From Kiloniella litopenaei (GTDB taxonomy: Bacteria > Pseudomonadota > Alphaproteobacteria > Kiloniellales > Kiloniellaceae), in assembly GCF_000982415.1 (NCBI RefSeq), contig NZ_LANI01000009.1, positions 7,501 to 71,500 on the forward strand: 64,000 nucleotides of DNA. Direction: 5' to 3'. Position 1 is the first letter of the stretch. The number at the start of each line of letters is the position of its first letter. Position numbers and translations under genes: made by a program. The notes beneath the pieces are model-generated. The model worked only from the letters and a program-made list of their open reading frames with translations. It searched no databases and had not been told where the DNA came from. Of the stretch, positions 21,002 to 32,392 are shown piece after piece.

Positions 21002-21040
21002 AAATTAACGGGAAGATTTTTCTTCCCGTTAATTTGTTTT
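21002..21040 (+). terminator. Rho-independent terminator after phoX
   Basis: A perfect 15-base inverted repeat (AAATTAACGGGAAGA and TCTTCCCGTTAATTT) with a TTTT loop, followed by GTTTT. It lies 38 bases after the phoX stop and separates phoX from the signalling genes. Confidence 0.85.
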
Positions 21041-21120: not shown

Positions 21121-21825
21121 ATGAAGTTTTACATCAAATTATTCTCATTAATTTTTGCAGCCGTCATTTCGGCCGAAGCACATACAGCCAGTAAAACGAT
21201 TCAAACACTTGGCTTGGTTAACTTGCCTAAATCAGATGACTTGGCAGCCAAAGTCATAAATGAAATAATTCAAACAAAAATCAAACCTATCTCTCAACAA
21301 GAAAGTATTATTACTGCCATTAAGCAACAAAACATCGAGTTTACGGATATTCATGAGATAAAAATAATCGCTATGGATAAGAAATGGCGATTGGAAACTG
21401 AGAAATTAGGCTCCTCCCCAATTAATCACCCATTAATAAAAAAACTACTCGATAGAACTGCGTCAAAAAAACTTCGTTCAATTAAAGAGAAACAAAGAGG
21501 TCTTTTCACCGAAATCATTGTAACAGACAACAAAGGTCTAAACGTTGCAATTAGCGATATTACTTCTGATTACTGGCAGGGTGATGAAGACAAATGGCAA
21601 AAAACCTTCAAAGTAGGTCCAGAAGCCATCTTTATTGATGAGCCAGATTTAGACGAATCAACGCAAGCCTTTCAATTACAGGTCAGTATTACAATCAACG
21701 ACCCCCATAATAATCAGAGCATTGGAAGTCTTACTGTTGGGCTAGACTTAGATCTGCTCGAACTTCTTCTCGAAGATGAAGTTGAGGTATCCAGTTTCAA
21801 CAACAGGAACTTACTTAATGAATGA
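21121..21825 (+). CDS. Secreted single-Cache (PDC-like) sensor protein
   Basis: A 234-residue protein with a signal peptide (MKFYIKLFSLIFAAVISAEA, cleavage about residue 22) and no later membrane segment, so it should be free in the periplasm. The part from about residue 120 has the layout of a Cache/PDC sensor: EIIVTDNKGLNVAISDITSD, YWQGDEDKWQKTFK, then VSITINDPHNNQSIGSLTVG. Such domains normally sit inside a membrane receptor. Its TGA (21823-21825) overlaps the start of the histidine kinase (ATG 21818), so the two are translationally coupled. It probably binds a small ligand and signals through that kinase; this is inference from layout. AAAGG lies before the ATG. Confidence 0.7.
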   Translation: MKFYIKLFSLIFAAVISAEAHTASKTIQTLGLVNLPKSDDLAAKVINEIIQTKIKPISQQESIITAIKQQNIEFTDIHEIKIIAMDKKWRLETEKLGSSPINHPLIKKLLDRTASKKLRSIKEKQRGLFTEIIVTDNKGLNVAISDITSDYWQGDEDKWQKTFKVGPEAIFIDEPDLDESTQAFQLQVSITINDPHNNQSIGSLTVGLDLDLLELLLEDEVEVSSFNNRNLLNE

Positions 21826-23404
21826 GCAAAAAATTAATCGTTCAAAATTTTTTTGGAACGTTAGTCGTAAAGTATGTTTTTTAGCTATAACTGGTACAAC
21901 ACTTTGCTTTGCATTGCTTACATATATCAACTGGCAAGTCGAAAAAGAAAGAATTTACCAGATCGTGATTGATAATGCCGTAATCAAAACAGAGTTATTG
22001 GCATCGCAAATTGTCGGCGGAGTACGATGGAAAAAACCTGAAGCAATATGGCGCCCCTTTAATAGTCTAAAGGCAAACAACTCAATATCAAATTTTAACA
22101 TTCATGTATTTGATAATAGCGGCAATCAGCTAATTGAGCATGAAGAACTAAAACAACACAATAATGCGTGGGATATTAGCGTTTTTTTATCGCAGGACGA
22201 AGTTAAAACCGAATATATTAAAAACCACGATAATACTTTAACAGTTATCACACCGATAAAAAACACCCGAGATACAATTTTTGGCACTCTTGTGATGGGC
22301 TGGAGTCTTGAACAAGCAGAAAATTATCAACAGCAGAGTTTACTGGAAGAACTGTATGTCTTTCTCGCCTTCACAATCATCTCTGTATCTTTTTTATTTC
22401 TTATTATTAACAAGAAAGTTGGTAAGGTTCTAAAACAACTCAGCCATGAAATGGTTTTGGTTACTGAAAATAAGCATAAACCTGGTAGCGATCTTTTATC
22501 GCGAAAGGATGAGTTTGGCTTAATGGCCAATGCTTTGGAAGTGTTTAAAAAAAACACGGACAACCTGAAAAAAATCGAAGAAAAGCTTATTGAAAAAACT
22601 CTTCAGCTAGAAAGCACGTTACAAAAAGAACTTAAGCAAAATGCACTTCAACGTGACTTCATATCCATGACTTCCCACGAATTTCGCACCCCCCTCGCCA
22701 TCATTGACAGTAGTGTCCAAAGAATTGAACGGCGGATGGATAAACTTGACAAAGAACAACTGCAAAGACGAATTCATAAGATCAAAGTAGCCACTCAGCG
22801 TATGCTCACCTTAATTGACAGTACGCTAAGTGCATCTAGGATTGAAGCTGGTGAAGTAGAAATCGAACTCGGTCCCGTTGATCTTGCGGGTTTGGTTGCA
22901 CAACTTTGTATTAGTCACGACGATATCGCAGACAAACACACAATTACCTATAACGTAGAACAACTGCCCAGAAACATGATCGCTGACTTTTCAAAGCTAT
23001 CACAGGTTTTCACTAATCTCTTATCTAACGCCATAAAATATTCACCGGATGCTTCCGAAGTTATTGTTAATGGTTTTCTCGAAAACAATCGGGCAACCAT
23101 CACCATACAAGATTTTGGGATTGGTATTTCGCAAGAAGATTGGGACAACATCTTTGAGCGTTATTATCGGTCAAGTAATACAACAGGTATTTCAGGAACA
23201 GGTATTGGTCTTTGTCTAGTCCAAACCCTTTTGGAATTACAAGGCGGTGTCATCTCGGTAGAGAGTGAAGTTAACCAAGGATCTACCTTTAAGGTCCAGA
23301 TGCCAGTTAATCCACCAGGAGATAAAACGGCAGAAATAATTGAGGTCCCCCTTAGCTCTCAAAAAAACAAACCGTCACTTGATGACATTATGGATGCACT
23401 CTGA
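21818..23404 (+). CDS. Membrane sensor histidine kinase
   Basis: A 528-residue kinase starting at ATG 21818, inside the end of the previous gene. There are two membrane segments (about 20-38 and 179-197) around a periplasmic domain of about 140 residues, then a HAMP-like linker and coiled coil (200-280). The HisKA box is FISMTSHEFRTPLAII with phospho-acceptor His287. The ATPase domain has NLLSNAIKYSP, IQDFGIGISQEDW, FERYYRS and GTGIGLCLV. The longer frame from 21776 lacks a reason to be used. It lies between the Cache protein gene and the response regulator gene and is very likely their partner. The ligand is unknown. Confidence 0.92.
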   Translation: MNEQKINRSKFFWNVSRKVCFLAITGTTLCFALLTYINWQVEKERIYQIVIDNAVIKTELLASQIVGGVRWKKPEAIWRPFNSLKANNSISNFNIHVFDNSGNQLIEHEELKQHNNAWDISVFLSQDEVKTEYIKNHDNTLTVITPIKNTRDTIFGTLVMGWSLEQAENYQQQSLLEELYVFLAFTIISVSFLFLIINKKVGKVLKQLSHEMVLVTENKHKPGSDLLSRKDEFGLMANALEVFKKNTDNLKKIEEKLIEKTLQLESTLQKELKQNALQRDFISMTSHEFRTPLAIIDSSVQRIERRMDKLDKEQLQRRIHKIKVATQRMLTLIDSTLSASRIEAGEVEIELGPVDLAGLVAQLCISHDDIADKHTITYNVEQLPRNMIADFSKLSQVFTNLLSNAIKYSPDASEVIVNGFLENNRATITIQDFGIGISQEDWDNIFERYYRSSNTTGISGTGIGLCLVQTLLELQGGVISVESEVNQGSTFKVQMPVNPPGDKTAEIIEVPLSSQKNKPSLDDIMDAL

Positions 23405-23442
23405 TTACGCGCTGATCATATTTAGATTATTAGGGAATAAAA

Positions 23443-25089
23443 ATGGCAACAATTCTATGTGTAGAAGATGAAGACGCCCTTCGTGAAGATTTAGTAGAAG
23501 AACTTGAAGACGAAGGCTACACTGTTCTATCAGCCAAAAATGGCGAAGAAGGTTTCAAAATTATTTCGGAGAATAAAAACCTTGATTTGGTTTTAAGTGA
23601 TATTTCAATGCCAATAATGAATGGCTTTGAGCTTTTGAAACAGGTCAGAGAAAATGATGCAGCCTTTTCTGATATTCCTTTTGTTTTTTTGAGTGCTTTG
23701 TCAGACAGAGATCAAATTCTCGAAGGCAAAAAACTTGGCGTTGATGATTATGTTATAAAGCCTGTTGATTTTGATTTGTTATTTGCAACGCTCGCTACCC
23801 GTGTTCGACAAATTACAAAGATAAAACAAAAGCAGGAAAAGGAAATGGTTGCCCTTTATAAGGCATTATCTCCTGAAGAGAAAAACGCGTCTGAAGCAGC
23901 TCAAAACACGGTTCCTAACGTCACTCAAGTTCCTGAACAAAATAACACTACGCAGGAACCAACACCACAAACGACATCTTCGCCTCCCAAGCTACCTGAA
24001 ACTGGAAAGTTGGTAACCGGGCGTTTTCAGTTGCTTGGCTTGGATAAATTAAAAGAAAAGCTGAAAGACAAAACCGATAAATATATGGCAACGCTTCAAA
24101 CCGTTATTCAAAATGTTGTTTCAAAAAACCTGTCTCCTGAAGATGTATGTAAAATCGGTGCTGACCATGAAATGATGATTTGTTTTGCCAAGTTATCAGA
24201 AGAAGAAGCAGCCTATAAAATTGAATCCATTAAACGGGAAATCTGGATAAAAGTACTTGGAGAAGAAGATTATCAGGAAGAATTAAGTATAAATTCGCAA
24301 GTCTATGAAATCGAAGTTGAAGAAGAGGAATATGCTAGCGCCAAAAGTCCCTGGGATTTAATCCAGGATAGAATAAATAAAGCCGCCGCAGCAGCCGAAG
24401 AACGCGTTGATATCTTTATTGGCGAAATACTAGAACGTGCTGAAGTACGATTTACAAAGCTGTACAATACTGATGGAAAACCATTACCAATATCTGTCGC
24501 AAAATTTGATGGTTTTGGACAAAATAAACTGAACTGCATTAATCAAGTAATCAAACCCGATGACCCGCGCTGCCTTATCGTAGAGGGAAGCTATATTGGC
24601 CAAACCATTGCGTATATGATTTCTAATCTATCAGATATGGCCGCGGGTGTTGTTTTAAAAATTAGCTATCAGCTCTGTATCAACAAAAAAGAGTTTGAAA
24701 ACGCGCTGGGATTACTTGAGAAACTTCCAAAAGTTGCCAGAGATCGAATGATCATAGCAATTACCAATATTCCGCCAAAACTGCATCTTTCACAACTCAG
24801 TGACTTGATGATGCGAATAAGGCCCTTTTGCAAAATGGGAATGACAGAGTTCCAACTGGAGATGCCATCAGATCAAAACTTTGAATTGGTTGGTGCCTCG
24901 ATACTTATGCTGGATTTTCACGAAGCAAAAGCCTTGATCAGATATTCAAAGCCAGCCTTTGTACAGGCCATAAAAACATTACGGCTAAAAAAGAAAAAAT
25001 TGCTCATCACGAATGTGCCTGAAAAACAAATCGAAACTTGCAAAAAACTTGGAGCTAATTTTGTAGATATCAGAAACGAAGCTGCTTAG
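23443..25089 (+). CDS. Response regulator with a degenerate GGDEF-EAL-like output region
   Basis: A 548-residue protein. Residues 1-125 are a receiver domain with phospho-acceptor Asp53, acidic pocket VEDED and Lys106 in YVIKPVD. A helical linker (125-150) leads into a Pro/Thr/Gln-rich stretch (150-187). Residues 190-290 have the outline of a GGDEF domain, but the signature position reads KIGADHEMM. The C-terminus (about 370-548) resembles an EAL fold in outline, ending in LLITNVPEKQIETCKKLGANF, but lacks the EAL and DDFG motifs. If correct, it neither makes nor cuts cyclic-di-GMP and may bind a nucleotide or partner. The assignment of the output region is inference. Confidence 0.72.
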   Translation: MATILCVEDEDALREDLVEELEDEGYTVLSAKNGEEGFKIISENKNLDLVLSDISMPIMNGFELLKQVRENDAAFSDIPFVFLSALSDRDQILEGKKLGVDDYVIKPVDFDLLFATLATRVRQITKIKQKQEKEMVALYKALSPEEKNASEAAQNTVPNVTQVPEQNNTTQEPTPQTTSSPPKLPETGKLVTGRFQLLGLDKLKEKLKDKTDKYMATLQTVIQNVVSKNLSPEDVCKIGADHEMMICFAKLSEEEAAYKIESIKREIWIKVLGEEDYQEELSINSQVYEIEVEEEEYASAKSPWDLIQDRINKAAAAAEERVDIFIGEILERAEVRFTKLYNTDGKPLPISVAKFDGFGQNKLNCINQVIKPDDPRCLIVEGSYIGQTIAYMISNLSDMAAGVVLKISYQLCINKKEFENALGLLEKLPKVARDRMIIAITNIPPKLHLSQLSDLMMRIRPFCKMGMTEFQLEMPSDQNFELVGASILMLDFHEAKALIRYSKPAFVQAIKTLRLKKKKLLITNVPEKQIETCKKLGANFVDIRNEAA

Positions 25090-25213
25090 TTAACATGAGC
25101 ATCTGTACTATCCGTTTTGAAGACACCAAATATACGATGCCCCCCAGGTGTAAAAAAACGTGTAAAAAACTATACGGGCTTTAATAACAGCTGTTTTTAA
25201 TAACCATAAGACA

Positions 25214-25714
25214 ATGCTTCAAAATTCTCTCGCAACATGGGACACGAAATCTGCCGAAGATATTCGTAAAATCTATGCGCAGTATGTGAACGCTCCCAAC
25301 TTCGAACAAGATCTTGTTGCCTCTTTACAAATCAAAGATTTGCAACAAGGTGCCACGTGGCTATTAAAACACCATCTTTGTCAAAAAGGTCTCGCCACTT
25401 CGATCTATTCGGACACCTTGTTTAATAATCTGGATTTATTTGATGAATGGGAAAGCTGGCTACACATTTTACAGTCATTTGAGCATCTTATAATAGATAT
25501 TTCACACAAAAAATCCGTCGAACAGTTTGTTCGCAACAGCCTCAAAAGCGATAATAAGCTAATCCGCGCTTGGGGATATCACGGGTTTTATTATCTCAGT
25601 CAACAGTTCCCGGAATATCAAACGGAAGTCAAATCACTCATGCAAAAGGCCCTTTTGAGCGAAGCCGCATCGGTAAAGGCACGGATAAGAAATTTACCAA
25701 AAGTGACTGATTAA
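25214..25714 (+). CDS. Helical-repeat (HEAT-like) hypothetical protein
   Basis: A 166-residue cytoplasmic protein, predicted nearly all helical. The stretch around residues 105-160 (NKLIRAWGYHGFYYLSQQFP, then VKSLMQKALLSEAASVKARI) has the look of HEAT-type repeats, which usually act as protein-binding surfaces. I do not recognise a named family. It lies 124 bases after the response regulator on the same strand, and its last four bases overlap the end of the convergent tctE-like gene. It may be a partner of the signalling system; this is weak inference. Confidence 0.6.
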   Translation: MLQNSLATWDTKSAEDIRKIYAQYVNAPNFEQDLVASLQIKDLQQGATWLLKHHLCQKGLATSIYSDTLFNNLDLFDEWESWLHILQSFEHLIIDISHKKSVEQFVRNSLKSDNKLIRAWGYHGFYYLSQQFPEYQTEVKSLMQKALLSEAASVKARIRNLPKVTD

Positions 25715-27096
25715 CTTTTGGGGAAAACCAAGATAAAACAGGCTCCGGAACCTGGTCGCATATCCCTATATTCAATTGATCCGCCGTGGCGTTCCATGAT
25801 TTCCTTTATAATTGGCAAGCCAAGGCCACATCCCTCATCATCGCGTGTTTCAGAACGATAGAAACGTTCAAAAACCTTATTTTGCTCACCTTTTGAAATT
25901 CCCGGGCCGTTGTCTTCTACCAATAGAACAACGTGCTGAGTATTTTGTTTTAATCGAACCGTCACAGTTGACCCCTTGGGACAATAGTTCAAGGCATTTT
26001 CAATTAAATTCTTTAACGCTTCTTTGATCAGCTCTTCATTACCAAAAATAGATGAAACCGGGTTTTCGGGCTCAAAGCCCAAATCAATTTCCTGTGCAAC
26101 GGCCATCGGGACATATGCACGGGTTACATCCTCACTTAGTCTTTTAAGATCAATGGCCCCGGTTTGGAAGCTCTCGTCCTCTTGATGGGTTCGGGCCAGG
26201 CTAAGCAGCTGATTAATAAGCCGTGATGTTTGTTTGGTGCTTCGGTTCAAATGCTCTAACCGCTTCGAAATTTCCTCTGGATCTTTTGTCTTACGGGCTA
26301 ATTCTGCCTGTGTCTGGATCGCAGCAAGCGGTGTTCTTAACTGGTGCGCAGCATTCGCTGTAAATCGTTGCATGGCTTCTATAGACGCGCCCAGCCTTTT
26401 CATCAGATCATTAATCGCATCAATCAGGTGTCGGACCTCTTGTGGGACTTCGTGTTCTATGGGGCGAAGGTCAGAGGGTGTTCTGCGATTAAGGGCTGCT
26501 TCCAATCGCACAAGAGGTTTTAAGCCCCACCCGATACCTATCCACAAAACAATTCCAGCCACCACTATAAACACCAATTGACGGACAATCGCGGCTGTCA
26601 TCATTTCATTAATCAGATTGTTACGCCCCTCGACGGTCTCGGCTACCATCACAGTAAAACGAGCAGATAAACGCCCCCCGGAAATATGACGGGAAATCAC
26701 GCCGACCCTTATGGCATCACCACGGTAATCAGCATCAAAGAAAAGCGGTGCACCATTTTTGGGAATATCTTTATTATCTACCACCGGTAAATCATCATAA
26801 CCTGTGATAAAGCTATTTCCCGGGCCAACAACCTGATAAAAAACGCGATCCTGAGCCGCCGATGTCAACATTTCAAGTGCCACATAAGGCACATCAACTT
26901 CCAGCTGTTCGCCCACGACAACAACGCGTTCGGCAATCGCCAGTGCAGACCCCAATAACACCCGGTCGTATGCTTCGTTAGCTGCTTTACTTGCGCTGGA
27001 CCTTACCTCGAACAGCATCAGCACAGAAATAATAGCAAGTACACCAAGCAACCACAGCAACAAACGCCTACGGAGAGATTTGCGCTGCCAGCTCAT
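25711..27096 (-). CDS. tctE: TctE-like sensor histidine kinase
   Basis: A 461-residue kinase with membrane segments at about 11-29 and 169-189. The periplasmic N-terminal domain (AYDRVLLGSALAIAERV through FYQVVGPGNSFITGYDDLP) is the 2CSK_N sensor domain of TctE. A HAMP segment is followed by HisKA with His251 (FTANAAHQLRTPLAAI) and an ATPase domain (NLIENALNYCP, VEDNGPGIS, GCGLGLPI). It overlaps the upstream response regulator gene by one base. TctE-type kinases control tricarboxylate uptake, and a tctCBA operon follows 2.2 kb away. Confidence 0.9.
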   Translation of the reverse strand: MSWQRKSLRRRLLLWLLGVLAIISVLMLFEVRSSASKAANEAYDRVLLGSALAIAERVVVVGEQLEVDVPYVALEMLTSAAQDRVFYQVVGPGNSFITGYDDLPVVDNKDIPKNGAPLFFDADYRGDAIRVGVISRHISGGRLSARFTVMVAETVEGRNNLINEMMTAAIVRQLVFIVVAGIVLWIGIGWGLKPLVRLEAALNRRTPSDLRPIEHEVPQEVRHLIDAINDLMKRLGASIEAMQRFTANAAHQLRTPLAAIQTQAELARKTKDPEEISKRLEHLNRSTKQTSRLINQLLSLARTHQEDESFQTGAIDLKRLSEDVTRAYVPMAVAQEIDLGFEPENPVSSIFGNEELIKEALKNLIENALNYCPKGSTVTVRLKQNTQHVVLLVEDNGPGISKGEQNKVFERFYRSETRDDEGCGLGLPIIKEIMERHGGSIEYRDMRPGSGACFILVFPKS

Positions 27097-27758
27097 TATT
27101 TTTCCATCAAATAGCCAAGACCCCGGACAGTCTTGATACTTATATTTGCCGTCGTCAATCTCTTCCTCAAACGACTGACATAAAGCTCGACAGCATTTGG
27201 ACTGATGTCTTGATCAAAATTGGCAAGGCTGTCGGCGATCTGTTCTTTACTGACAACATGCCCTGCCCTGCTGATCAGTAGTTCCAGTAAACAAAACTCT
27301 CGACGTGGCAGGTCAAGTGGCTCCCCCAAAAGGGTGACCCGACGTGCCACACTGTCAAAGATCAACTCACCAATTGTAATTTCCGGTGATTTCAACCCAC
27401 TTTGTCGGCGTAAAAGCGCCCGTACCCGCGCTTCGAGTTCGACAAGATCAAACGGCTTTGTTAGATAGTCATCTGCCCCAAGATCCAAGCCTTTAACTCT
27501 GTCGTTCAGCGTATCCCTTGCTGTCAGAATCAGAACCTGGGCTTTACCACCATTTTGACGATAGCGTTTTAAAATCTCAAGCCCGTCATAGCCCGGTAAA
27601 TTCAGATCCATCACGACCAGATTAAATTCCTGAGTACGTAAAATATTGTCTGCTTCTGTACCGTCACCAACAACATCAACGGCCATTTCCATGCGGGTAA
27701 GAGCACTGGAAATTCCGTCTGCCAAAGCAGCATTATCTTCTACGACTAGTATTCTCAT
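27096..27758 (-). CDS. tctD: TctD-like response regulator (OmpR family)
   Basis: A 220-residue response regulator: an N-terminal receiver with Asp51 (VVMDLNLPGYDG) and Lys in YLTKPFD, then a winged-helix DNA-binding domain (SPEITIGELIFDSVARRVTL to the end). The ATG at 27758 is preferred to a TTG six bases upstream. The gene precedes tctE on the minus strand. It is divergent from an orphan binding-protein gene, with a gap of about 70 bases, so both may be controlled together. Likely target: the tctCBA genes at 29338-32392, as in the reference Tct system. Confidence 0.9.
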   Translation of the reverse strand: MRILVVEDNAALADGISSALTRMEMAVDVVGDGTEADNILRTQEFNLVVMDLNLPGYDGLEILKRYRQNGGKAQVLILTARDTLNDRVKGLDLGADDYLTKPFDLVELEARVRALLRRQSGLKSPEITIGELIFDSVARRVTLLGEPLDLPRREFCLLELLISRAGHVVSKEQIADSLANFDQDISPNAVELYVSRLRKRLTTANISIKTVRGLGYLMEK

Positions 27759-27829
27759 GCGCAAAAGATTAACTTTGTTCCAGGTTGTTTGAAAAGCCCG
27801 GGAACGAAAGAAAATCTAATTTCCTTTCG

Positions 27830-29047
27830 ATGACAGGTTCCCGACAGCTTTCAACCCTACGCTTAAAGGAAAACAGAAACCATAAATTGGTCAGTACTAA
27901 ATCAGGGGCTCGGATCATCAAAACATTATTACTTAATCGTGCACTTTGTATACGCGCGTTTTACAAATCACTACTATTCATTTTTGGCTTATTTGGCGTC
28001 ATACTGGCTAGCCACTTGGGCACGGGTACATCCTATGCAAAGGCATATGATTTTCCCGCCATATCAGGAAAAGAAAATAATGTCATAACGATTTATAGCG
28101 TAACCGATGTTGATATTTTCCAAGACATCATAGCCGATTTCCAACAGATATTTCCCGATATTTCTATCATCTATCACGATCTGCAATCTCTTGAGCTTTA
28201 TGAACGTATTCAAGAGGAGACGTTGAAAGACAATGTCACTGCCGACATCGCCATCAGCTCGGCTATGGACCTTCAGATGAAACTTGCCAACGACGGATTT
28301 GCGCAGCCCGTCGAAATATCGACGGCACAGGAAATGCCGTCATGGTCACAATGGCGGAACGAAGTCTTTGGCTTTACATCAGAACCAGCAGTTACGATTT
28401 ACAGTAAAAAGTACTTTGAAAACCATGCGCTGCCCAAAACGCGCCTGGAACTTCAACGCTTTCTGGCGGAAAGGCACGCAGATTTATTTGGGCGAATTGC
28501 GACTTATGATATAGAACGCAGCGGTGTTGGTTTTCTTTTTATGGGGGTCGATTCTGAACGATACAAAGGCATTTGGAATCTAGTTAAATCATTTGGGGCA
28601 AACGGTGTAAAACTGTCCACAAACTCTTCGGCCATTATCAACAATGTCAACAGTGGGAAGTATGTAATTGGCTATAATGTCCTGGGATCTTATGCACTCG
28701 CACGACTGGAAAGTTCACCCAATCTTGGTATATTATACCCCGAAGACTATACAACCGTTCTCTCTCGCCTCGCCCTGATTCCCAAAGCTGCAAAATCGAA
28801 AGAGACAGGAAAACTCTTTTTAGAATACCTTCTTTCTGAACGGGGACAGAAACTACTAACCAACAGTGCCAAACTAAGTGCAGTGCACCCGGCCGTAAAA
28901 GCGAGCGGCCCAAAGGAAATTCTGGCCGCCCAAGCCCGCAGTAATCTTCAACCGATCAAGGTCGGGCCGGGATTACTGGTATACCTTGATCAAGTAAAAA
29001 GACGAAAAACCATCAACCAGTGGAACAAATCCTTACGTGGCGAATAA
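27830..29047 (+). CDS. Orphan extracellular solute-binding protein (AfuA/PgtC-like)
   Basis: A binding protein of the iron/phosphosugar type-2 family. After an N-terminal extension of about 40 residues comes a hydrophobic segment SLLFIFGLFGVILAS, then the mature domain with VITIYSVTDVDIFQDIIADF and a late LFLEYLLSERGQKLL. No ABC permease or ATPase gene is next to it. Family members beside TctDE- or PgtAB-type systems act as accessory sensors for the kinase (PgtC is the named example), so that role is likely here; inference. The start is uncertain: ATG 27830 is listed, TTG 27785 or 27887 is possible, and a start nearer the signal segment would suit better. Confidence 0.75.
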   Translation: MTGSRQLSTLRLKENRNHKLVSTKSGARIIKTLLLNRALCIRAFYKSLLFIFGLFGVILASHLGTGTSYAKAYDFPAISGKENNVITIYSVTDVDIFQDIIADFQQIFPDISIIYHDLQSLELYERIQEETLKDNVTADIAISSAMDLQMKLANDGFAQPVEISTAQEMPSWSQWRNEVFGFTSEPAVTIYSKKYFENHALPKTRLELQRFLAERHADLFGRIATYDIERSGVGFLFMGVDSERYKGIWNLVKSFGANGVKLSTNSSAIINNVNSGKYVIGYNVLGSYALARLESSPNLGILYPEDYTTVLSRLALIPKAAKSKETGKLFLEYLLSERGQKLLTNSAKLSAVHPAVKASGPKEILAAQARSNLQPIKVGPGLLVYLDQVKRRKTINQWNKSLRGE

Positions 29048-29337
29048 AGGATAAGACACATTAAAAAAGCAACATAAGCACCTATTATTAAACAGTATTT
29101 AATTTTATTTAAAATAATTCATTCAACGACAGGATAGTGACAGCTTTATAGATTAGCTTACTGATATTGAATGGTGGGCCGCAGCATAAAAATAAAAAAA
29201 GCGGTTGGGGAGACAGTAATATAAACGGCTCGGACAATGCTCTGAACCGATTTTCCTACATTAAGGCTTCCCCTTACCCGACTTGGCTCGGCGGTTTGTT
29301 ATTCATCGAATTAACAATCATACTCGGAGGCCAATTC

Positions 29338-30336
29338 ATGTTTGGCAAAACAACAAAACTATCACGTCGTCTTGTACTTTCTATGGCAGCAGCGACAGTT
29401 TCCCTCGGTCTGGCAATGCCGCTTTCTTCTGCCTCGGCTGCTGATCTGGAAAAAATACACTTTCTTATCCCTGGTGGTGCTGGTGGTGGCTGGGATGGCA
29501 CCGCACGTGGCACTGGTGAAGCCTTGACCAAATCGGGTTTGCTTGGTTCTGCCTCTTTTGAAAACATGTCCGGTGGTGGCGGTGGTAAAGCCATTGCCCA
29601 CCTGATCGAAACGGCAGAACGTCAGGGTGATACCCTGATGGTCAACTCTACGCCAATCGTTATCCGTTCACTAACAAAAGTTTTCCCACAATCCTTCCGC
29701 GATCTGGTTCCTGTAGCTGGTATTATCGGTGATTACGCAGCTTTTGTTGTGCCAGCTGATTCCAAATACAAATCTTTCTCCGAAGTTGTGGCTGATTTCA
29801 AAGCTGATCCTAAATCCGTGAAAATAGCGGGCGGTTCCGCACGTGGCAGCATGGATCATCTTGTTGCAGCACAAGCTTTCAAGGCTGCTGGCGGCGACCC
29901 CAAAGCTGTAAAGTACATCCCTTATGATGCTGGTGGCAAGGCAATGGCCGGACTTCTATCCGGTGAAACTGCCCTGCTTTCAACAGGCCTATCCGAGGCA
30001 CTGGAACTGGAACGCAGTGGTCAGGTTCGTATTCTTGCCATGACTGGCGCCAACCGTATTGACGATGCTCCTGAAATTCCAACCCTTACAGAACAGGGAA
30101 TTGACGCCACATTCGTAAACTGGCGCGGTTTCTTTGCAGCGCCAGGTACATCAAAAGAAAAAGTTGCGGCCTATAACGCCACTTTGGAAAAAATGTACGA
30201 CACACCCGAATGGGAAACCGTTCGTTCACGTAATGGATGGGTCGAAGTCTTCCAGCCTGCTGATATTTTCTACACCTTCCTGGAAGAGCAAGAGGGCATT
30301 ATTGGTAACCTGATGAAAGAGCTTGGCTTCTTATAA
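29338..30336 (+). CDS. tctC: TctC-type periplasmic tricarboxylate-binding protein
   Basis: A 332-residue binding protein of the tripartite tricarboxylate transporter. A signal peptide (SRRLVLSMAAATVSLGLAMP, ending SSASA-A) is followed by the TctC motif IPGGAGGGWDGTARG and the conserved MDHLVAAQAF and YIPYDAGGKA. The ATG at 29338 has CGGAGG seven bases before it; the open frame to 29167 is not needed. The 290-base gap upstream is AT-rich and holds no gene I can support. It is the first gene of tctCBA and likely the target of the TctDE-like pair. The ligand may be citrate or another carboxylate. Confidence 0.93.
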   Translation: MFGKTTKLSRRLVLSMAAATVSLGLAMPLSSASAADLEKIHFLIPGGAGGGWDGTARGTGEALTKSGLLGSASFENMSGGGGGKAIAHLIETAERQGDTLMVNSTPIVIRSLTKVFPQSFRDLVPVAGIIGDYAAFVVPADSKYKSFSEVVADFKADPKSVKIAGGSARGSMDHLVAAQAFKAAGGDPKAVKYIPYDAGGKAMAGLLSGETALLSTGLSEALELERSGQVRILAMTGANRIDDAPEIPTLTEQGIDATFVNWRGFFAAPGTSKEKVAAYNATLEKMYDTPEWETVRSRNGWVEVFQPADIFYTFLEEQEGIIGNLMKELGFL

Positions 30337-30377
30337 GTCGAATATCTGTCAGTAAATTTAAAGAAGGAATGGAGACA

Positions 30378-30857
30378 ATGACCCTCAGCAAGGAAAAAGC
30401 GGGAGCCTTGTGTTTTCTGGTTCTCGCAATCGCTTATGGTATGGAAGCAAGGCAAATTCCCTTGTTTCCGGGTGATGAACTGGAACCTTTTACCGCCCGG
30501 ACTATGCCAATCGCCCTTTCCTGGCTTACGGGCATTGTCTCCTTTCTTCTTCTTGTCCTGCCGCAAAGAGAAGAAACAGACGATATCTTATCCGTCTTTC
30601 GTGGACTGAATTGGGGCAGAACTTCTATCCTGATCGGCCTAATGGTCTTTTACGGATTTACATTGAGCCCACTTGGGTTCCTGTTATCTACCGTCTTGTT
30701 CCTGATTGGTGGTATCTATGCACTGGGTGAAAGACGATGGTCCGTCATTCTTCTTTCTTCAGTTCCTGCCACCGTTGGTTTCTGGTTCATTCTCGACAAG
30801 CTCCTGGGGATCTATCTCGCACCCGGTGAGATCTTTACTATGCTCGGAGCAAATTAA
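30378..30857 (+). CDS. tctB: TctB-type small membrane subunit
   Basis: A 159-residue membrane protein with four hydrophobic segments (for example ALSWLTGIVSFLLLVLP and FLLSTVLFLIGGIYALG), the normal plan of TctB. Start at ATG 30378 gives an AAGGA nine bases upstream; the ATG at 30369 has no spacing. Its TAA overlaps the tctA ATG (TAATG at 30855-30859), so the two are coupled. Confidence 0.9.
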   Translation: MTLSKEKAGALCFLVLAIAYGMEARQIPLFPGDELEPFTARTMPIALSWLTGIVSFLLLVLPQREETDDILSVFRGLNWGRTSILIGLMVFYGFTLSPLGFLLSTVLFLIGGIYALGERRWSVILLSSVPATVGFWFILDKLLGIYLAPGEIFTMLGAN

Positions 30858-32392
30858 TGCTTGATGGTATTCTTCAAGGGTTAAGCACGGCTGCTTCCCC
30901 CGTTAATCTTTTAATGGTTTTTGTTGGCTGTTTCGCAGGAACCTTTATCGGCATGTTACCGGGTCTTGGCCCTATTTCAGCCATTGCTCTCATGATCCCT
31001 ATTACCTACGGCTTTGACCCTGCAACGGGCATGATCCTGATGGCTGGTGTGTATTATGGTGCTATTTTTGGTGGGTCAACATCCGCAATTCTGATCAATG
31101 CACCGGGTGTTGCTGGTACCGTTGCCACATCATTTGACGGCTACCCTCTTGCTAAGCAAGGCCATGCTGGTAAAGCCTTGGCAATTGCAGCCTATAGCTC
31201 CTTCAGTGGCGGTACCATTGCCGCGATATTCCTTCTTTTTGCAGCACCTGCATTGGCATCGGTCTCCCTCAGCTTTCAATCTGCTGACTATTTCGCCCTT
31301 ATGGTTCTTGGCTTAACAGCCGTCTCCGCCTTTGCCGGAAAGGGAAAATTTCTGATTGCGGTTCTGATGACACTCTTTGGCTTGATGCTCTCGACCATCG
31401 GGACCGACCAGACAGCAGGGCTACAACGATTTACATTTGGCTCTCTGGATCTGATAGATGGCATCAGCTTCCTGTTGCTTGCAATGGCGACCTTTGCCCT
31501 GTCAGAAGCATTGATGGTCGTTCTAAAGCCAGAAAAAGTATCTCAGGAAGCTGAAGAAGCGACCAAAGGGAAGCTCGGCAGCATGAAGGTGAGTAAAGAG
31601 GAAGTCAAAGACCTTGCGCCTGTTGTCGGACGTAGTTCTGTCCTCGGTTTCTTTATCGGTGTCCTACCCGGGGCTGGGGCAACGATTGCCTCTTTCCTTG
31701 CCTATGGGATGGAACGCAGCTTCGCCAGTGCGAAGGAAAAACTTAAATTTGGCAAAGGCTCCATACGGGGCTTGGCTGCGCCGGAAACAGCAAACAATGC
31801 TGCTTGCTCTGGATCATTTGTGCCACTTCTCACGCTTGGTATTCCGGGGTCGGGTACAACAGCGGTTATGCTGGGCGCACTTATCTCCTATGGCGTTCAA
31901 CCCGGACCACGACTATTTGTGGAACAGCCAGCGGTATTCTGGTCCGTGATTATTTCCATGTATATCGGGAATATCATCCTGCTTGTTCTAAACTTGCCCT
32001 TAATTCCTTACATTGCCCGTTTACTGGCGTTGCCCAAGCAAATCCTGACACCCTTGATCCTGTTTTTCTCGTTGATCGGTGTTTACCTTGTCTCCTTTAA
32101 TACCTTTGATATTCATATCATGGTTATCGTGGCAATTATTGCGATCGTCTTCCGATTGATTAACTTCCCGCTTGCCCCGATGTTACTGGGCTTCATTCTG
32201 GGCGGAATGATGGAAGACAACCTTCGCCGGGCCTTGGCAATCAGTGATGGAGAGTTGTCCTTTTTGTGGGAGCGTCCAATTACCGCAAGCATTCTGGCGA
32301 TTACCGTCATTGTTTTACTTGCGCCGCTCGTTCAAAACATCATTGATATTCGCCGAAAAAAAGCCCTCAAAGTAAATGATGGCGAAGGATAG
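30857..32392 (+). CDS. tctA: TctA-type large membrane subunit
   Basis: A 511-residue multi-spanning transporter protein of the TctA family. The conserved motifs GTFIGMLPGLGPISAIALMI, YYGAIFGGSTSAILINAPG and FIGVLPGAGATIASFLAYG (internal repeat of the first), and the later LTLGIPGSGTTAVMLGALI, are all present. It couples carboxylate uptake to the ion gradient, with TctC as binding protein. Complete, with usual length and 11 to 12 membrane segments. Confidence 0.95.
   Translation: MLDGILQGLSTAASPVNLLMVFVGCFAGTFIGMLPGLGPISAIALMIPITYGFDPATGMILMAGVYYGAIFGGSTSAILINAPGVAGTVATSFDGYPLAKQGHAGKALAIAAYSSFSGGTIAAIFLLFAAPALASVSLSFQSADYFALMVLGLTAVSAFAGKGKFLIAVLMTLFGLMLSTIGTDQTAGLQRFTFGSLDLIDGISFLLLAMATFALSEALMVVLKPEKVSQEAEEATKGKLGSMKVSKEEVKDLAPVVGRSSVLGFFIGVLPGAGATIASFLAYGMERSFASAKEKLKFGKGSIRGLAAPETANNAACSGSFVPLLTLGIPGSGTTAVMLGALISYGVQPGPRLFVEQPAVFWSVIISMYIGNIILLVLNLPLIPYIARLLALPKQILTPLILFFSLIGVYLVSFNTFDIHIMVIVAIIAIVFRLINFPLAPMLLGFILGGMMEDNLRRALAISDGELSFLWERPITASILAITVIVLLAPLVQNIIDIRRKKALKVNDGEG

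Follow-up and report, generated by a model that had tools for sequence, protein, structure and literature searches.

A 64,000-nucleotide stretch of the Kiloniella litopenaei genome (hereafter the window; G000:C85:7501-71500, within which all coordinates are given) carries a locus whose first three genes encode a free-standing Cache-domain protein, a sensor histidine kinase, and a response regulator. We lean toward reading the locus as a receptor in two parts whose signal goes to a regulator with FimX-like output. As we picture it, the exported Cache protein would be the soluble ligand-binding half of the receptor; it would dock in the periplasm on S1—the periplasmic sensor of the kinase encoded by the overlapping gene—and would set kinase activity. 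The kinase would phosphorylate D53 of the neighboring receiver, and phosphorylation would shift what a degenerate GGDEF-EAL pair, itself presumably no enzyme, binds. Because the relatives examined more often pair the Cache gene with a methyl-accepting chemotaxis protein (MCP) than with a kinase, the Kiloniella locus is a kinase-type variant of a widespread Cache + receptor module, wired here to a phosphorelay. We are evenly divided on a broader proposal, in which free Cache proteins would be their own class of periplasmic ligand-binding co-receptors, docking on at least two kinds of receptor sensor, S1 and CHASE3-like, and the Cache + S1 pair would have been exchanged between chemotaxis receptors and a phosphorelay kinase in control of a regulator whose output resembles FimX.

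The Cache Protein

What does the first gene encode? A first-pass annotation of this DNA had described four consecutive plus-strand open reading frames (ORFs), which we recovered at the same positions (Table 1), and had proposed a Cache fold for the first product. An AlphaFold model and structure comparison bear this out, with long N-terminal helices and a PAS-like sheet, despite the absence of any Pfam family at E <= 1 and of any NCBIfam family. The 50 structure matches listed are extracytoplasmic Cache/PDC sensors or constructs thereof, as judged by title and general knowledge. Pfam dCache_1 is matched at E <= 0.1 by 3 of 20 members of this Cache family and by none of the other 17, and the best of these matches (1e-5, 25.6 bits vs. 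a cut-off of 45) falls below the Pfam threshold; a profile of the family had no match among Protein Data Bank (PDB) sequences at E <= 5. The family shares a conserved core motif, GLNV..SD.TSDYWQGDE.KWQKT, and among 17 relatives on plasmids, nine carry the annotation “PDC sensor domain-containing protein.” The N-terminus of the window protein looks signal-like by eye (best 19-residue hydropathy mean 1.44, none above 1.6), and the protein is apparently exported to the periplasm.

The same Cache family also occurs built into histidine kinases (L220:4824-7637, E 4e-13; L221:4927-7383, E 5e-11). Relatedness between the Cache protein and S1 was unsupported by profile comparison (1.1%, E 0.05). Two Cache-family genes, in L105 and L106, lie on viral-collection contigs, perhaps at prophage borders.

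The Kinase and Its S1 Sensor

The kinase start codon (ATG 21818) precedes the stop codon of the Cache gene (TGA 21823-21825), so that the two genes overlap as the first-pass annotation had it; the longest kinase ORF would begin upstream, at the in-frame ATG 21776. Pfam finds HisKA and HATPase_c, in agreement with the earlier assignment as a histidine kinase, and H287, N400, N404, D432, G434, and G436 are invariant across 11 rows, marking conserved His, N, and G boxes. The sensor had been thought to be split out of the kinase and to survive as the Cache protein. The kinase itself, however, keeps a ~135-residue periplasmic domain, flanked by hydrophobic windows that start near residues 19 and 174, and the Cache protein is thus not its missing half. 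This domain, S1, is homologous to the sensor of Cache-adjacent chemoreceptors: a profile of the kinase family's N-termini (L098, whose sensor differs, was excluded) matches the N-termini of Cache-adjacent MCPs with an S1 sensor (S1-MCPs) at E 3e-16 to 8e-43, aligned across the periplasmic part. S1 has no clear Pfam family—dCache_1 is matched weakly in 5 of 17 rows (best 0.0038) and CHASE8 in 1 of 17 (0.0069)—and its profile had no match among PDB sequences at E <= 10.

Cache Genes Beside Receptor Genes

How often does a free Cache gene stand next to a receptor gene? Among 98 relative genomes, 39 contain the Cache family, with 61 matches; the 61 recovered ORFs and their surroundings, the window's copy included, are our first set. 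For 48 of the 61, a receptor gene lies no more than 300 bp downstream on the same strand. These partners comprise 26 S1-MCPs, 17 MCPs with a CHASE3-like sensor plus one more in two ORFs, and four S1-kinases, among them that of the window. The CHASE3 identity of the sensor comes from Pfam, in two scanned examples. Receptor profiles were built from Cache-adjacent MCPs and the window kinase's family; other receptor kinds could be missed. Because MCPs are few per genome (0 to 37 matches in 21 genomes), chance adjacency of a Cache gene and an MCP gene would presumably be rare.

The reciprocal count agrees. S1 has matches in 41 of the 98 genomes; using the 46 matches at E <= 1e-13 (11 of 57 lay above this value and were dropped), we found a Cache gene directly upstream of 30, a count that is biased upward because the S1 alignment holds Cache-adjacent rows. 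At the same threshold, S1 is carried by 31 of the 39 genomes with a Cache gene vs. 2 of the 59 others (Fisher p 8e-16).

A second set covers 398 Pseudomonadota genomes, 35 of which carry the Cache family at E <= 1e-10. Six of their 43 matches lie in first-set genomes and were not counted. The remaining 37 divide into 28 free-standing copies (<=240 aa) and nine that are parts of longer proteins. An MCP gene is found within 400 bp on the same strand for 17 of the free-standing copies, 15 times downstream and twice upstream, with sensors of the S1 type in nine (two of them weak, 2e-8 and 1e-7), the CHASE3-like type in six, and another type in two. One such pair, in Ruegeria sp. TM1040, joins the Cache protein WP_011536813 to the MCP WP_011536814 (S1 sensor at 3e-11), while Rhizobium sp. 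TCK, Agrobacterium sp. MA01, and Paroceanicella profunda hold Cache + CHASE3-like MCP pairs. Seven of the 17 plasmid records with a Cache gene were looked at; the MCP gene is directly downstream in four and lacking in three, as far as an incomplete gene table tells. No annotated MCP adjoins the copies looked at in Azospirillum (two records) and Pseudoalteromonas.

In the window's own genome, another Cache copy is paired with a CHASE3-type MCP (L053:6655-10401, on G000:C1). MCP matches in this genome total 28, none of them found to be of the S1 type, and S1 itself is matched by the window kinase alone. At L053:6655-10401, the Cache gene and the MCP gene are followed by a gene for a 431-aa protein that carries the same Cache family C-terminally. 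By eye, the N-terminus of this protein resembles an amino-acid binding protein; Pfam assigns the protein dCache_1 and DUF3482 and nothing else. A similar-looking 382-aa protein occurs in Pseudoalteromonas (L180). Tandem arrays of three Cache genes before one S1 chemoreceptor are seen at L081:7849-10562 and L082:7653-11331, and on an Agrobacterium sp. MA01 plasmid typed as conjugative (L182:4842-9496), a Cache gene, an MCP gene, and an EAL-domain gene stand in a row.

Co-inheritance of Cache Protein, Kinase, and Regulator

The type of partner tracks the Cache tree. The 18 partners of the CHASE3 type all fall into one clade (100/100), and partner labels change nine times on the tree vs. a mean of 27.1 in shuffles, with a value as low in 0 of 200, a result that near-copies inflate. 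The window's copy groups with the copies of two other genomes of the genus (100/100).

The first-pass annotation had called for a survey of the gene neighborhood and had made its system reading depend on co-occurrence of the orthologues. Nine genomes of the genus were examined. Kiloniella majae (L093) and K. laminariae (L095, L096) are the named relatives. The regulator is present in five of the nine, and Cache gene, kinase, and regulator stand together in three of these five; one further genome, G046, has all three. An S1-kinase gene lies upstream of the regulator gene in nine loci (the window, L054-L057, L058/L097, L059, L061, and L066/L100), with a small receiver gene in between at three, and a Cache gene is found at only four of the nine and is absent from the other five. 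The pair of S1-kinase and regulator is thus conserved more widely than the Cache gene.

A single origin of the ten S1-kinases was neither rejected (p-AU 0.411) nor demonstrated by a tree test, the S1 tree leaving out rows with E > 1e-6 or fewer than 150 residues. Kinases from K. laminariae (a tandem pair in G003 and one in G002, all without a Cache gene) nest with modest support among Cache-paired Kiloniella kinases, and because of this placement we suggest that the Cache gene was lost in K. laminariae. In G003, the two tandem S1-kinase genes precede the regulator gene (L056:4392-7875), and no Cache gene is found there.

A Regulator with a Degenerate GGDEF-EAL Output

The third gene encodes the 548-aa regulator, and its receiver domain confirms the earlier assignment as a response regulator. 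Read from the sequence, the E8/D9 acidic pair, D53, S84, and K106 are present, which we take to be the functional positions. The C-terminal 361 residues form an output region that has matches, a number of them incomplete and weak, in 16 of the 98 relative genomes; a scan of this family against IMG/VR gave none. This region had been described as resembling a GGDEF-EAL pair without its signature motifs, a description that profile comparison (hhalign) supports. The window's output family aligns with a group of more distant relatives (99.8%, E 1e-30), which in turn align with GGDEF-EAL proteins (95%, E 3.5e-8), and the pooled 17-row alignment matches GGDEF-EAL across 367 columns and both domains (95.5%, E 1.6e-8); controls against the kinase alignment gave 0.5% and 0.2%. 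On single output relatives, Pfam is weak, with GGDEF in 1 of 13 (0.0084) and 2 of 6 (best 0.0019) and EAL in 1 of 13 (0.079).

FimX is a degenerate GGDEF-EAL protein reported to act in type IV pilus control. Among PDB sequences, the pooled output family matches it best: nine entries fall below E 0.01, and six of them are FimX (best 5.9e-5). The other three are an uncharacterized protein, matched in the same region, and two designed TIM barrels, for which the match spans ~42 residues. The signature motifs are gone from the window protein: ADHEM stands at the GGDEF position, and opposite the E and A of EAL its row in the alignment is gapped. Unlike FimX, then, the window protein lacks the EAL motif in the alignment, and Pfam lists no PAS domain for it. 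Binding of cyclic di-GMP by the window's EAL half is doubtful because this motif is missing; the output region, as we read it, would be a nonenzymatic adaptor.

Weighing the Two-Part Receptor Against Its Alternatives

Several observations weigh against the two-part receptor. Among the 50 structure matches listed, Foldseek TM-scores for the Cache protein are low (0.29-0.42 by query) because disordered ends are included. In the tree, the Cache clade of the window has a long branch and an unusual composition, which leaves its exact position unsure. Cache distances track S1 distances beyond the signaling domain (partial r 0.44, reached in 2 of 2,000 permutations, 26 S1-MCP pairs), but the partial correlation of Cache distances with the signaling domain is not much lower (0.34), and the co-variation therefore lends the pairing mild support. 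No receptor gene lies directly downstream of 13 of the 61 first-set Cache genes. Four of the 13 sit in tandem arrays upstream of a Cache + receptor pair, one has a kinase gene 1.7 kb away, and no receptor was found downstream of the other eight, which include two longer fusion proteins directly downstream of an MCP gene and one gene with an opposite-strand MCP at 220 bp. In the second set, no MCP was found within 400 bp of 11 of the 28 free-standing copies. As for the output, the link to GGDEF-EAL runs through the more distant relatives: compared directly with true GGDEF-EAL proteins of related genomes, the 13-row output alignment reaches only 6.4% (E 0.0057), and the FimX matches span the EAL half alone, the GGDEF half depending on the profile comparison. 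Finally, S1-kinases without an adjoining Cache gene occur in K. laminariae (G002 and G003) and in G009, G012, and G030, and in two of these S1-bearing genomes, G003 and G012, the Cache family has no match anywhere. S1 can therefore work without the Cache protein.

This last observation favors an alternative that we consider rather unlikely but the strongest of the competitors: the kinase may sense through S1 alone, and the Cache protein may be a co-transcribed modulator—a scavenger, a chaperone, or an S1 inhibitor—instead of the ligand-binding half. S1 weakly resembles Cache/CHASE8 and so may bind ligands itself. However, the strongly conserved core motif of the Cache family speaks for a binding or contact role of the family itself, and a single Cache family partners two types of sensor, S1 and CHASE3-like. 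An improbable alternative is that the Cache protein works in trans for chemoreceptors, in which case its location next to the kinase would give cross-talk between chemotaxis and phosphorelay. The second Cache copy with its CHASE3-type MCP and the many MCP matches of the window's genome would fit such a role; the lack of an S1-type MCP there and the agreement of partner type with the Cache tree speak against it.

Does the fourth gene belong to the system, as the first-pass annotation supposed? Its product, for which a HEAT-like fold had been proposed, matches no Pfam or NCBIfam family at E <= 1; of 41 genomes, 17 give a match to it. The K. majae copy is found 6.5 kb past the regulator gene, beside another two-component system; the copy of an uncultured relative (L094) is upstream of the Cache gene; and G004 carries the gene but matches neither the Cache protein nor S1 nor the output region. 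Because it is displaced in K. majae and L094 and present alone in G004, the fourth gene is no stable part of the locus; it is not co-inherited with the other genes and probably stands outside the system. The most ambitious form of the earlier proposal, one receptor split into Cache protein and kinase within a four-gene system that includes a helical fourth gene, is suggested by gene order and overlap in the window but is very improbable, being already largely contradicted by the kinase's own sensor and by these wanderings of the fourth gene.

Relation to Known Systems

Two familiar architectures frame the proposed two-part receptor. Soluble partners in systems of the LuxP-LuxQ and TorT-TorS type have solute-binding-protein folds, and the Cache/PDC sensors DcuS, CitA, DctB, and WalK carry their Cache domain within the membrane receptor. 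The Kiloniella protein has the fold of the latter sensors, but its Cache domain is a separate protein. Like LuxP-LuxQ, TorT-TorS, HptA-HptS, and BctC-BctE, the locus combines a soluble periplasmic protein, here a predicted one, with a membrane kinase that has its own periplasmic domain, and by analogy it most likely works like LuxP-LuxQ or TorT-TorS. The sensor kinases of those four systems use a periplasmic binding protein (PMC8534201, PMC9602780), and binding is reported for them, whereas contact between the Kiloniella Cache protein and its kinase is proposed here. Because the soluble partner is a Cache domain, the locus is not a member of the LuxPQ/TorTS class as usually defined. The Cache protein and kinase can also be likened to DbfQ-DbfRS of Vibrio cholerae, in which the gene for a small periplasmic protein adjoins a two-component system and the protein reportedly acts on that system directly (PMC12714742).

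An incomplete survey of the literature, PMC4822843, PMC9602780, and PMC8534201 included, showed no pairing of a free-standing Cache protein with an MCP or a kinase. Our findings suggest that a free Cache protein and its receptor constitute a little-noticed kind of two-part receptor. If so, some receptors credited with sensing through their own domain would sense through a partner overlooked by annotation, and receptor ligands could be found directly by screening a small soluble protein. One sensor with either MCP or kinase output would amount to a natural domain-swap experiment.

Layout and Flanking Genes

Table 1. Features of the Kiloniella locus, in window coordinates
Feature	Coordinates	Strand	Remarks
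Free-standing single-Cache (PDC) protein, signal-like N-terminus	21121..21825	+	234 aa
Sensor histidine kinase, transmembrane - periplasmic S1 domain - transmembrane - HisKA - HATPase_c	21818..23404	+	
Kinase S1 sensor region including both hydrophobic segments	21857..22477	+	Homologous to N-terminus of Cache-adjacent chemoreceptors
Regulator gene	23443..25089	+	548 aa
Receiver domain	23443..23793	+	Response_reg 3.3e-24, residues 4-117
Degenerate GGDEF-EAL output region, EAL half FimX-like	24004..25086	+	Profile comparison
Orphan gene, probably outside the system	25214..25714	+	166 aa
Perfect inverted repeat between phoX and Cache gene	21002..21035	.	15 nt, 4-nt loop; terminator-like, function inferred

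Upstream of the Cache gene lies phoX (Pfam PhoX, 4.8e-177). The terminator-like inverted repeat that precedes the Cache gene suggests that the latter begins its own transcription unit; the repeat is absent from the output of a consensus scanner. We considered phoX as a partner and rejected it: it adjoins the Cache gene in K. majae (L093) too, but the strong inverted repeat separates the two in the window, and no other link was seen. On the other side of the locus, at 25711-32392, a convergent kinase-regulator pair is followed by genes that look by eye like those of a tripartite tricarboxylate transporter, and the group recalls the BctE-BctCBA citrate system.

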